Shown here: positions 46,652 to 60,252 of the stretch, piece after piece | Numbering within the stretch: the stretch's first letter is position 1 | Layout: each line of letters starts with the position of its first letter | Assembly: GCA_017442315.1 (NCBI GenBank) | Contig: JAFRZX010000172.1 | Location: 1-61,011 of the forward strand | Length of the DNA: 61,011 nt | From: Bacteroidales bacterium | Lineage (GTDB): Bacteria; Bacteroidota; Bacteroidia; Bacteroidales; UBA932 | Direction of reading: 5' to 3' | Program-made: the position numbers and the translations under genes | Notes under the pieces: model-generated | Database searches by the model: none | Seen by the model: only the letters and a program-made list of their open reading frames with translations | Told to the model about the DNA's origin: nothing

Positions 46652-49600
46652 TCAGTCAGGAATAATGACGAAGCTGTATGTATAGTTGCGGTCACTCCAC
46701 GCGCACCTTTCTTTTTCGGTGCGCCGGCCCCAGCTATCGTAACCTCCGACACCGGTATGGATACCATCAATGCAAAGTTCCACATAATCTCTTGGAACAA
46801 TGTCATTGATATGGTGATGACGACGACGCACATTCCTGGCTTTTTCCGGAGAATGGTCTTCGTACGGATGAAGATTGTCCCACTGGTAATCATGCCGGAC
46901 GGCTTCCTCAGAGTCAAAATCCTCCACACTGTTGCGGAGGGCATTGAATTCAAATGTCCCGTCTGCAATTATCGTCATACCTCCTATTTCAAGCCAGCGA
47001 CAATCTACATGATGACCGTTCTCCTGAGGACGTACATATGGCACATATGATTCCGTCGCGGAGGTTTCCCATATTCCCATACGTGCACCAGCCTTACGGT
47101 CCCAGTAGGTTTCATGAGGTCCTCGGCCAAAATATGTAAAACTGTCTGCGGAAGACGGCAGCCTCATCCTGAGACCGATGCGAGGTACTTCTATCGGATT
47201 CTCAGAAGGTACTCCTTTGAAATCAGATGAAATCCTCAACACTCCGTCTGCATAGACTTCGTATTCCACATCATAGACATTTCCAGAAGGCAAAGCATAC
47301 GAAATACGCAGTTCCGCTGCCCTTCCTTTCCTGCATACACAGGCTGTGGCATTGAATTCCTTTGATGCAGTCTTGTAGACCTGGGTTCTCTTCGGCCACC
47401 CGTTGCCGTAATCGTTATCTGTAGGAGCGCGCCAGAAACCAGGTCTTATACCGAAAGAATCAGCCAGCATTTCCCGACCTTTGACCTTATATGAAATGAC
47501 GTATGAGGCGGATTTGTCATATATAAGTTCCACCTTGTCAGATCTTATGACAATGCTGCTGCTGTCTTCGCAGATTTCAACACAACCGACCTCAGGCTGC
47601 ATGAATTCCGTCTTTTCAGCTTCTTTGAGAAGGAACTGCTCCTGTGCAATCACATGACCCTTTGCAAGAAAACTGGTCTGTCTGGTAGTAATCACATCGA
47701 AATTGATGTGATAAATCTTTCTCCAGTGCATCCTTGGCAGCTTCACCTCAAAATCTTCTCCCTGCTGAGGACCTGTCCCGAATGTGAGAGTTCCGGTACT
47801 TATGGTCTTTCCGTCCGCAAGAATGCTGTAGCGCACCAGATAATCTTCAAGACCTGTAAAATAAAATCTGTTGAAGATGTTGAATCTGCCACTTGCCGGA
47901 TCATCTGAAGTGATCTTCACATTCTGATAGACATACTTCACTTCTGACAGCCCCGGATGAGGTTCACGGTCAGGACCGACTAATCCGTTGCAGACAAAGT
48001 TTCCGTCACTTGGCATCCTTTCACCGAAATCCCCGCCATACGCCCAGAAAAGGAAATTGCCTTGAGCATCATATTTTGCAAGAGCCTGATCCACCCAATC
48101 CCAGATGAATCCACCCTGTAGATGGGGATACTTATATATATATTCCCATTGCAGGTCTAGAGAGCCGTTGGAATTACCCATAGCATGGGAATACTCCGAA
48201 GGACATACAGGACGATCCTGAGGATTCTCACCCATTTTCCTGAACCATGCAGCAGAAGGATACTGAGGGACTATCATATCCGTATTCCACTCGTATTCAG
48301 CTCTTTCATAACATACGGGACGGTTCATACCATCCTTTTCTAGAGCCTTGATGTGATTGTATGCGTCGTAGAAATTGCATCCGTTTCCGCCCTCATTACC
48401 TAATGAGAGGATAGTCACGCATGCATGATTTCTTGTGCGGAAGTACATGTTGCGGATGCGGTAGATATGATTTGGATACCATTCAGGTTTGTTGCCAAGG
48501 GTCCTGTCCGGATGATAGAACATTCCATGACTTTCCACATTGGCCTCATTGTAGACATAAAAACCAAGACTGTCACACAGATCATAGAACATGCGAGGCT
48601 GAGGATAATGACTTGTACGAATGGCATTGATATTATGCTCCTTCATCAGACGAAGGTCCTGGAGCATCCTTTCACGTGTGACATAGTGGCCTGTGTATGG
48701 ATCCGTCTCGTGCATGTTTACTCCCTTGAACTTCACCGGCATGCCATTTACAAGAAAAAGGTTTCCCTTTATCTCAAGACGACGGAAACCGACATTGAAC
48801 CGGGTGTATTCGCCATCGACACAAAGCAGAAGAGTATATAGCTGCGGATCCTCTGCCGACCATTTCCTTACGTCCTTTATAACTCCTTCCACTGCAGCCT
48901 CACCGTTGCTAACTGATATGCTGTCCTCCAGAACGGCTTTTCCATCCTTGTCCAGAAGCTGAAACGACACATCAGGATCAACCATAGGGTCTGATGAGAT
49001 CTCCAGACGGAAATATCCGTCATTACAGTCCTGATCAAGAGAAGAAACGACATTAATATCAAAGTCCATGTCATATTTCTCTGATGAGAGATAGACATCT
49101 CTTTCTATTCCGCTGATACGGAAAAAATCCATGCACTCAAGATAAGATCCTGTGGAGTATCTGTATACCTTGAGTACAAGATCATTATCTCCCTCTGTCA
49201 GATATGGGGTGATATTGAATCTTGCCAGATTCTTTGAATCCTCATTATAACCAGCTTCAACCCCGTTCACGTATACGTAGACCCCGGATTTGGCTCCTGC
49301 GAGGTTCAGATAGACCTGACGTCCTGCCCATTCCTGAGGCACCTCAAAGGTACGGAAATAGACTCCTGATGGATTCTCATCAGGAATCAAAGGAGGTGTC
49401 GGATTCAATGTCATGAATTCGTAATCCGAATTCACATAGATCGGTATGCCGTAACCCTGCACCTCCCAGTTACCTGGAACCTTTATATCATCCCATCCGG
49501 AAGCCTGTTCTGCAGTAGTCTTCGATACGGCAGGATCCATATGCTGCTGGGAATCATAGTAACGGAACTTCCATATTCCGTTGAGGTCCATATAATTCCT

Positions 49601-49768
49601 GCTTTGGTCAAATCCTTCGGCAAGTGCCTCATCCCGGCTCGGCCAGAAGATGAGTTCCGTCCTTTCAGTCTCTGCATTCAGAGAATGCACATCCAGGTCT
49701 TTCCAATAAGGATTCTGAACGGATACTCCTGATGCAAGAGCTACCGCAACTGCAAAAGTACTGATCAT
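46652..49768 (-). CDS. GH2 beta-galactosidase (LacZ type)
   Basis: A 1038-residue exported enzyme with a weak signal peptide ([18 protein letters not shown]). The five LacZ domains are present: jelly roll ('[18 protein letters not shown]', '[17 protein letters not shown]'), first immunoglobulin-like domain, the barrel with acid/base Glu459 in 'LGNEGGNG' and the nucleophile Glu in '[14 protein letters not shown]' near 525, second immunoglobulin-like domain, and the Bgal-small-chain domain ('[19 protein letters not shown]'). It starts 4 bases after the M3 peptidase gene. In this setting it might remove galactose from hybrid or complex N-glycans, but it belongs by position to the nuclease/TonB operon. 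The substrate is not proved. Confidence 0.92.
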
Positions 49769-49772
49769 ATGA

Positions 49773-58304: not shown

Positions 58305-58323
58305 TGAAACATTTTATATCTTA

Positions 58324-60252
58324 TTATTCTGAAATTGCCGAAAGTCCGATAAAGAGAACGCGGCCATTTGCCGGATCCAAAGTCTCAACCTTCACATCAG
58401 TTGCAGATGAAGATGTCATCTCGACCTCATAATAATCAGCATCTGCCAGGGTGATGGTATATGGTGCATTTCCTGTCGCACCTACATTTGCCTTAGGGCT
58501 GACCGTAGCCAACTCCGTTCCACCTGCAGTGAACTTTACAGTAGCAGTCTTACCCTTCCAGGCAACACAATAGAAACCGATCTTTGAAGTTCCGGCAGGA
58601 ACATGAAGAGTTGCATCACCTACTTTTGAAATTGTTCCCAACTTCAGGAGATTTGCCACAGCCACACCGTTCACTGTCGCAGTCTGGCAGTTGTTTCCTG
58701 TACCGGTATTGTCATATGCATTGGTTCCCAATGTCCATGTAATTCCCTGAGGATCATAGTCGCCTGCCTCTCCTGTATTTCCGCCGCCGGTTCCAGGAGT
58801 CTCAGGAGCTTCAGTTGCTTCTCCTTGCAGATAAAGAGCAGGATAAACGCCTCTTACATCCGGATATGCACCGTATGAATTATAGTTTGTATCAAACTGC
58901 AGGGACTTGTTCATCTCTACATTTGTAATGACAACTGTTCCATCTGTCTGCGGCTCAACTGTGAAGACATGACCGGAAGTCGGATTCGCATCCAGATTGA
59001 AACTATTGTAAGTTCCTTTCATGTAGAGATACCTTCCATCAGACTGTCTGATAGTATAGCCACCGTCAACCTGAGTGAAAGTAAAGGCATTAGCTCCCTC
59101 TGTCTTGATAACGCCGTTCTCATCTGTCACAGATGCAACCTGAAGATATCCATAATCTCCCGAAACAGGAGTTGCAGCTGACGAATTTGCAACAATTGCA
59201 TATGCCTTGCCGCTTTCAACAGATGTCGCCTTGGTAAACTCATACCATCCGCCAGTCACAGGAGGATTCTCACCGCCACCGGTAGATCCTGCCTCAAACT
59301 TCTCGATATATGCATCTACCATCTCGTGCTTTGTAGCTCCTGTTTCCGAATTAGTATAAAGCATGTACTTTCCTCTTACTGTAACAGTACCGCCTTTCTT
59401 TACTACACTTGCCCACTCTGATGCATTGTTGACTGTCCAAACGACAACCGTTGCAGTACCGTCATTCATGTCAAAGCTGCAGTATGTAGCGTTTACATTT
59501 GTAGTAACTTCTCCTACAAGTCTGTAGGTAGTGGTTGGGTCTGCCTTCTGGATGAATTCAGCACATGTGATCTGCTCAACATCATCAGGATTTTCCTCCT
59601 GACCAGCTGTGAATGATTCGATGATGGCATCAACAACCTCATGCTGGCTCTTGCTTTCATAATAAAGGTACTTACCCTTCAGAACTACTGTACCGCCGTT
59701 CTTGATCTTGTCTACCCACTCAGCCTTGCTTTCCTCAGTAACAGAGTACACATAGATCTTTCCTGTCGCATCCGTAAGGTCAAAGCTGCACCACTGGGCA
59801 TTGAAACCTGACACGACACCCTCAAGCCTGTAATAGTTCTCTGTATCAGCCATTTCAATGAACTCCTGGACAGTCACAGCATCAACTCCGCCTGTATCTC
59901 CATCCGGTCCTGCCTGATTTACAACAAGTGTAGCGAAGTCAGTACCGATGGTGAACTTGATCTTTGCAGTACGGTTACCTTTCTCATTCTTGGTAACAGT
60001 CACGCGGAGCACCTGCTCCTGAGACGAGCCTTCACCTCTTTCCTGAGATACAGCCACCCAGTCCACACTCTTCTCCACCTTCCATTCACGTGTAGCAGTG
60101 AGCCTTATTTCCTGAGAGCCCTCTTCCTGAGAAAACTCCAAAGATGACGGATTAAGCGCTACTTTTGCTGCGCCTAGCTCCTCTTCCTTCTTACAGCCTG
60201 TAAGTACAGCTGCAACCATAAGGATAAATGCGAAAATTTTCTTTGCGTTCAT
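58324..60252 (-). CDS. BACON lipoprotein with two OB-like repeats
   Basis: A 642-residue lipoprotein (MNAKKIFAFILMVAAVLTGC). Order: BACON (about 32-115), then two tandem repeats of about 95 residues. The first is 'VQEFIEMADTENYYRLEGVVSG' to 'GKYLYYESKSQHEVVDAIIESF'; the second is 'CAEFIQKADPTTTYRLVGEVT' to 'GKYMLYTNSETGATKHEMVDAYIEKF'. Each has the 'YRL.G.V......CSFD..D.TG' and 'GG.V...GKY' pattern of OB folds. A beta-trefoil-like segment ('YAIVANS', 'RYLYMKGTYNSF', 'LQFDTNYNSYGAYPD') and a C-terminal sandwich follow. First gene of the operon, with its own promoter. Binding of nucleic acid at the surface is a reasonable but untested role. Confidence 0.8.
   Translation of the reverse strand: MNAKKIFAFILMVAAVLTGCKKEEELGAAKVALNPSSLEFSQEEGSQEIRLTATREWKVEKSVDWVAVSQERGEGSSQEQVLRVTVTKNEKGNRTAKIKFTIGTDFATLVVNQAGPDGDTGGVDAVTVQEFIEMADTENYYRLEGVVSGFNAQWCSFDLTDATGKIYVYSVTEESKAEWVDKIKNGGTVVLKGKYLYYESKSQHEVVDAIIESFTAGQEENPDDVEQITCAEFIQKADPTTTYRLVGEVTTNVNATYCSFDMNDGTATVVVWTVNNASEWASVVKKGGTVTVRGKYMLYTNSETGATKHEMVDAYIEKFEAGSTGGGENPPVTGGWYEFTKATSVESGKAYAIVANSSAATPVSGDYGYLQVASVTDENGVIKTEGANAFTFTQVDGGYTIRQSDGRYLYMKGTYNSFNLDANPTSGHVFTVEPQTDGTVVITNVEMNKSLQFDTNYNSYGAYPDVRGVYPALYLQGEATEAPETPGTGGGNTGEAGDYDPQGITWTLGTNAYDNTGTGNNCQTATVNGVAVANLLKLGTISKVGDATLHVPAGTSKIGFYCVAWKGKTATVKFTAGGTELATVSPKANVGATGNAPYTITLADADYYEVEMTSSSATDVKVETLDPANGRVLFIGLSAISE

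Follow-up and report, generated by a model that had tools for sequence, protein, structure and literature searches.

A transposon screen for natural transformation in Riemerella anatipestifer has provided the closest known counterpart of the locus considered here (PMC8459023). A predicted operon there comprises RA0C_RS04915, whose product is predicted to lie in the outer membrane and carries a CarboxypepD_reg domain, and RA0C_RS04920, which encodes a DUF5689-DUF5017 protein; markerless deletion of either gene brought transformation below detection (PMC8459023). According to one sentence of the same report, all four of its new genes have homologues widely distributed in Bacteroidetes; according to another, homologues of RS04915 are found only in Flavobacteriaceae. 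Mutants in TonBA and TonBB also show lowered transformation in Riemerella, that in TonBA without an iron-uptake defect (PMC8383284). In Riemerella columbina, transformation increased about five-fold when peptone was left out and two-fold when phosphate was, an increase that fits feeding or transformation alike, and Flavobacterium johnsoniae was not transformable though it has other competence genes (PMC7965970). In a literature search covering mostly open-access papers, without preprints, PMC8459023 was the only one to name DUF5689, and titles and the beginnings of abstracts yielded no description of a nuclease-bearing operon or of TonB-driven nucleic-acid feeding in Bacteroidales; what is known in print is the Riemerella pair, and the nuclease-bearing form was not found there. 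Here, we describe such a form in a Bacteroidales bacterium (lineage UBA932). The window, by which we mean the whole stretch analysed, comprises the 61,011 nucleotides of contig JAFRZX010000172.1 (assembly GCA_017442315.1), which belongs to a 2.8-Mb draft genome that is 88.6% complete. We read the operon, with a probability of roughly 0.6, as a surface-to-periplasm system for scavenging nucleic acids, centred on an outer-membrane importer of DNA that is homologous to that of Riemerella.

The core of the operon consists of five consecutive genes on the minus strand (51,793–60,252), with intergenic gaps of 69, 60, 35 and 4 bases in order. The first (58,324–60,252) encodes a 642-residue lipoprotein, the proposed surface binder, in which a lipobox followed by KKEEE precedes a BACON domain, two oligonucleotide/oligosaccharide-binding (OB)-like repeats and a C-terminal region; the two repeats are 43.5% identical over 108 residues. 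The second (57,079–58,254) encodes a DNA/RNA non-specific (NS) endonuclease of 391 residues (Endonuclease_NS, 132 bits), the proposed surface cutter. Judged by eye, it is likely a lipoprotein itself (FVSC-DKPEQ), and its DRGH motif and the following Asn motif align with nucleases of the NucA and Serratia types in the PDB. The third gene (55,939–57,018) encodes an endonuclease/exonuclease/phosphatase (EEP) protein of 359 residues (Exo_endo_phos_3, 311 bits) with what appears by eye to be a cleavable-type export signal; it carries the motifs HxPSR, GDxND and SDHxP and is the proposed periplasmic nuclease or phosphatase. It is followed by a 999-residue TonB-dependent receptor-like barrel with an N-terminal CarboxypepD_reg domain (52,904–55,903), the proposed importer, and by a 368-residue DUF5689 lipoprotein (DUF5689, 131 bits; 51,793–52,899), proposed as a lid or surface partner of the receptor. 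An NCBIfam scan gave no model above cut-off for any of the five proteins. A sequence search against solved structures returned no relative for the receptor, the DUF5689 protein or the EEP protein, and for the first lipoprotein only matches confined to the BACON region.

In the genome G277, genes for RecA, four further proteins, ComEC, two further proteins, an EEP protein, the receptor and a DUF5689-DUF5017 protein follow one another in this order, with a spacing that matches exactly the tags RS04870, RS04895, RS04915 and RS04920. By this gene order, the G277 locus is almost certainly that of RA0C_RS04915 and RA0C_RS04920, and by tag count the EEP gene beside the Riemerella receptor is probably RS04910. 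The window's receptor is 29% identical to that of Riemerella over 1033 columns (E-value 2.7e-111), nearly its full length, and in a tree of 49 rows the two group together with 100/100 support, separate from a set of paralogues. The EEP proteins are 28% identical over 412 columns (E-value 2.6e-55) and the DUF5689 proteins 27% over 197 columns (E-value 1.2e-14). Both loci thus have a CarboxypepD_reg receptor-like barrel followed by a DUF5689 protein, with an EEP gene adjacent. However, the EEP gene is divergent in Riemerella and on the same strand in the window, and the Riemerella stretch fetched, whose end lies about 770 bases beyond DUF5689, has no match to the NS endonuclease, the first lipoprotein or the M3 peptidase described below. 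The receptor and EEP protein of Riemerella are basic (isoelectric points (pI) 8.7 and 9.2), whereas those of the window are acidic; the Riemerella DUF5689 protein has a pI of 5.2. The Riemerella ComEC also has a DUF4131 domain, which that of the window lacks. Judging by these alignments, the window's locus is best described as a homologue and variant of the Riemerella-type DNA-uptake locus, and we call it a homologue and not a member because the need for transformation is shown for Riemerella only.

For the conservation of gene order, the best 80 of 588 receptor loci found were taken, so that the sample leans to near relatives; same-strand genes were walked and contig ends left out. Some of the 80 loci apparently overlap with contigs of a separate same-genus set. 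The nearest named relatives are Bacteroidales metagenome-assembled genomes, mostly from animal gut, and five of the 80 are titled Candidatus Cryptobacteroides. The gene next upstream of the receptor encodes an EEP protein (78/78 loci), and the one after it an NS endonuclease (78/78); beyond this lies a lipoprotein-type frame in 73 of 75 loci, similar either to the first lipoprotein or to the N-terminal part of the NS endonuclease. Directly downstream of the receptor is DUF5689 (79/79), with an M3-family peptidase next in 59 of 76 loci. The locus recorded under Muribaculum sp. An289 (L163) has the receptor, DUF5689, EEP and NS endonuclease genes and one for a lipoprotein, and lacks M3. Median intergenic gaps across the 80 loci range from 3 to 12 bases. 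All 78 EEP proteins have the motifs HxPSR, GDxND and SDHxP; RGH is conserved in 76 of 77 NS proteins, with the Asp of DRGH present in only 25 of the 77. Such recurrence of the same order in 80 relatives is not due to chance. Within the window's genus, 16 of 25 genomes, its own included, have a full-length close receptor homologue, and several of the others are incomplete. A separate synteny table of 15 same-genus loci relied on a length-greedy choice of open reading frames, through which genes in some of these loci seem to be masked by antisense frames; L022, L025, L027 and L029 lack at least one of the five genes in that table, and the conservation counts given here rest on the 80-locus walk. 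In one relative (L172), the operon is immediately preceded by a gene for a HipA-like kinase (1003–2274, plus strand).

An earlier reading of the window from its letters and open reading frames (the sequence-only reading) had described the five-gene minus-strand run with the same gaps and intact catalytic motifs in both nucleases, and on both points it was borne out. It had also named conserved co-occurrence of the five families beforehand as a check. Within the window's clade the five do occur together, in fixed order in the 80 loci, but outside it they do not: an NS endonuclease is found near the receptor in only 8 of 77 other loci, some of them close kin. The absence of a glycosidase, finally, holds for the core, although the run from 46,652 to 60,252 to which the system had been assigned does include a GH2 enzyme. 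This run continues downstream from the core, on the same strand, with an M3-family peptidase lipoprotein (Dcp/OpdA-like; 49,773–51,788), a conserved accessory, and then with the beta-galactosidase-like (LacZ-like) GH2 enzyme (46,652–49,768), each after a gap of 4 bases. The peptidase, whose place is kept in 59 of the 76 loci, went unmentioned in the earlier reading. The GH2 enzyme ends the run and is not a conserved part of it: no GH2 gene was found directly beside the M3 gene in any of the 80 loci, and a weakly similar one (26%) adjoins it in one of the 15 same-genus loci (L019). In another relative (L125, 15,130–20,958), the M3 gene is followed by a GH3 frame (by Pfam), another frame and a GH2-like frame; the frames there are nearly equal in length in L191.

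The receptor family is found well beyond this clade. With an E-value cut-off of 1e-100, 78 of the 158 Bacteroidales genomes have it, as do 243 of 246 in the family to which Riemerella belongs (f20) and 31 of 89 in the corresponding order; f20 is presumably Weeksellaceae, and f21 Flavobacteriaceae. In a sample of the phylum searched at an E-value of 1e-40, 22 of 118 genomes passed, of which 18 (the window's included) had a full-length receptor and the rest a paralogue. Such paralogous receptors, which match the N-terminal part of the profile at about 140–200 bits, occur in many of the sampled Bacteroidia, mostly without a DUF5689 neighbour (L097, L100–L102, L105, L107–L111 and others). Among the 77 loci apart from the 80, matches anywhere in the fetched stretch were counted, with a few loci sharing a genome: DUF5689 was found in 74, EEP in 60, the NS endonuclease in 8 and M3 in 2. 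The usual layout in Bacteroidia has the EEP gene divergent from receptor and DUF5689, and no NS endonuclease.

On a tree of 74 receptors, presence of the NS endonuclease requires two changes, both forced by well-supported branches, compared to 13.7 in shuffles. This was a quick tree with support from the Shimodaira–Hasegawa-like approximate likelihood-ratio test only; it used 7 of the 80 loci and excluded barrels shorter than 800 residues, and L086, L089, L090, L092, L095, L218, L224, L225, L231, L264 and L274 were left out as redundant or because their frame was broken or odd. (A stop breaks the receptor frame of L264, from G479 C16.) One of the two lineages, lineage A, comprises the window's family (f1), the family f99 and, at its base, L272. 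In f99 (L245 and L246), the NS endonuclease, EEP protein, receptor and DUF5689 protein are encoded on one strand, while in L272 the EEP gene is still divergent and the NS gene lies downstream, which looks like an intermediate layout. The other, lineage B, consists of three genomes of genus g134 in f20 (L229–L231), in which an NS endonuclease, a fimbrillin-like protein, the receptor, DUF5689, an EEP protein and a C11 peptidase follow on one strand, with domains as scanned in L229. A second receptor of the main family is present in all three of these genomes. The one fetched, L232 in G285, belongs to a triad of the Riemerella type (62% receptor identity) that has no NS endonuclease in the fetched stretch, so that the nuclease form in G285 is an extra system. 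The count of two changes alone does not tell gain from loss. However, since gene order, the fused N-terminal domain (BACON or fimbrillin-like) and the peptidase all differ between the lineages, we read the changes as two gains of the endonuclease. In the 49-row tree both lineages stand apart on long stems, of 1.08 and 1.07 changes per column.

Acidic residues after the lipobox cysteine mark surface lipoproteins in Bacteroidota. Among those proteins in which a lipobox was found by pattern, such residues follow it in 74 of 77 DUF5689 proteins, 61 of 66 first lipoproteins, 44 of 55 NS endonucleases and 6 of 54 M3 peptidases. This pattern of acidity suggests that the binder, the cutter and the DUF5689 partner lie outside and the peptidase inside; the lipobox pattern used was loose: it also fired in 21 of 78 EEP proteins and in 26 of 80 receptors, and in the NS endonuclease of the window the cysteine that it selected was an earlier one. 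In a structure model, the DUF5689 protein is built as two tandem OB folds, and the top Foldseek rows include RPA, HIN-200, CST and POT1. The receptor has the 22-strand barrel of TonB-dependent transporters, and structural comparison matches it to receptors for siderophores, copper and cobalamin. It has no Pfam Plug match; many alignments start near residue 121, and residues 110–141 and 150–154 have a predicted local distance difference test score below 50. We considered the possibility that the first lipoprotein is a copy of DUF5689, and rejected it: DUF5689 was detected in 8 of 75 sequences (74 from relatives plus that of the window), the window's not among them. The lipoproteins in L235, L246 and L272 do carry it.

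Taken as a scavenging system, the operon would work as follows. The BACON/OB lipoprotein and the tandem-OB DUF5689 lipoprotein would hold DNA or RNA at the surface, where the NS endonuclease would cut it. The TonB-driven barrel would then import strands or oligonucleotides, the exported EEP enzyme would trim or dephosphorylate them in the periplasm, and the M3 lipoprotein may trim peptides that arrive with nucleoprotein. That the cargo is nucleic acid appears likely, and here the acquisition of nucleic acid proposed by the sequence-only reading gains from homology to a pair genetically shown to act in DNA uptake. Feeding is the probable main use; the products might serve as a source of phosphate, nucleosides or nitrogen. 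We favour feeding because the two nucleases stand in fixed order, a peptidase is present in most loci and the nuclease appears to have been gained in two lineages, and also because lineage B has a separate Riemerella-type copy and ComEC is reduced in the window's family.

In SusCD polysaccharide utilisation loci, a surface binder, a surface enzyme, a TonB barrel and a lipoprotein partner are encoded in one operon. The window's operon shares this overall layout, but its core has nucleases in place of glycosidases. Membership in this class was rejected, as no SusD-family model was among the Pfam matches of the five core proteins and GH2 lies outside the order conserved in the 80 loci. The likeness to a glycan locus drawn by the earlier reading therefore stands as an analogy, while the closest known system, the Riemerella transformation locus, had not been named there. 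The PusCD loci of Flavobacterium, together with the nucleases EndA1 and EndA2, similarly combine outer-membrane uptake of organic phosphorus in Bacteroidota with extracellular nucleases; however, as reported, these are phosphate-starvation loci with SusD-type partners, and the nucleases are orphan genes of another family, with LTD (pf00932) and pf04231 domains (PMC8115612).

Several observations count against the scavenging reading, and they are weighed here with the alternatives that they favour. The best-surviving of these, which we consider unlikely, is that the locus is the natural-transformation machine of the group, with the NS endonuclease as an entry nuclease like EndA or NucM, a barrel that imports DNA for recombination, and feeding as a by-product. 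The homologous pair is essential for transformation in Riemerella, and the window's NS endonuclease belongs to the DRGH nuclease family of EndA and NucM, which are cell-surface-associated and needed for transformation in pneumococcus (EndA, PMC3729463) and Moraxella (NucM, PMC6384898); an operon joining such a nuclease to a TonB receptor and a DUF5689 protein does not come up in either abstract. All 24 genomes searched, eight of them of the window's genus, retain DprA, and all 24 also have HHH_3, for which the model is not specific. Family f99 combines the nuclease form with a full ComEC (2/2 genomes), and no second receptor of the main family was found in the window's genome at its 88.6% completeness. 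The ComEC of Riemerella itself has no Pfam beta-lactamase domain. On the other side, ComEC in all ten genomes searched of the window's family is a frame of 371–397 residues in which DUF4131, the OB domain, was not above cut-off (two of the ten were scanned as proteins), though transformation by a ComEC without the OB fold is not established according to PMC12455585. One such short frame without DUF4131 lies in G000 (C6, 24,771–25,493; L212, 4400–5494). Outside the family, DUF4131 was above cut-off in 12 of 13 and 20 of 23 genomes in two sets; it was not detected in G026, G532, G566 and G578, and G026 and G566 had no ComEC match at all. The expectation that a reduced ComEC accompanies the nuclease form throughout fails, since both f99 genomes and G285 keep DUF4131. 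The separate triad in G285, with no NS endonuclease in the fetched stretch, and the conserved peptidase, which has no obvious place in transformation, also speak against this alternative. (In G029, a further EEP gene, apart from the receptor-side one, is convergent to the ComEC gene and slightly overlaps it; L216, 4770–5837, minus strand.)

Less probable still is a cargo of peptide, glycan, metal or cofactor, with the nucleases clearing DNA or acting on another phosphodiester. TonB barrels carry many cargoes, the receptor's fold matches are to transporters of siderophores, copper and cobalamin, and M3 and GH2 genes lie in the same run. The acidity of the OB lipoproteins is the main result against direct capture of DNA by them: the mature DUF5689 protein and first lipoprotein of the window have a pI of about 4.5, and the medians in relatives are 4.75 and 4.56. 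Surface lipoproteins of gut bacteria may, however, be acidic in general. What speaks against another cargo is that both nucleases occupy their positions in 78 of 78 loci and that the receptor and its partner are homologous to two proteins that DNA uptake requires. A role in surface defence or biofilms, with the nucleases breaking down DNA from phages, extracellular traps or the matrix and the receptor incidental, is very improbable: EndA degrades extracellular traps (PMC3729463) and NucM affects biofilm (PMC6384898), but such a role leaves unexplained both the importer and partner in fixed order and the wider EEP–receptor–DUF5689 unit without the NS endonuclease.

Some 50 bases before the start of the first gene there is a promoter-like site of the Bacteroides type, TTGC-N19-TATATTTG (60,304–60,334, minus strand). 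Its pattern has two matches in the window against 0.51 expected, with at least two in 8 of 100 shuffles, which is weak evidence. Elsewhere in the window, a SusC (33,936–37,304) and SusD (32,309–33,922) pair lies near BT_3987-like, BACON/LamG, GH97 and GH92 proteins (15,757–37,304). This appears to be an ordinary glycan utilisation locus, perhaps for mannan or N-glycans. Beyond it, a single plus-strand frame of 1191 residues (38,561–42,136) joins GH92 and GH125 alpha-mannosidase domains.

It has long been disputed whether bacteria take in DNA as a nutrient or as genetic material, and the outer-membrane step of this import is poorly known in Bacteroidota. Tentatively, and at somewhat less than even odds, a TonB-driven DNA importer may have been converted at least twice independently into a nucleic-acid feeding operon by a surface endonuclease, mostly together with a peptidase, and in one lineage sister machines for the uptake of food and of genes may share a genome. 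Sister loci of this kind, one linked genetically to transformation and one with nuclease and peptidase, in some species in the same genome, would make the two purposes separable. If the scavenging reading is true, it would give a function to DUF5689, as a tandem-OB partner, and a defined nucleic-acid acquisition operon to gut Bacteroidales.

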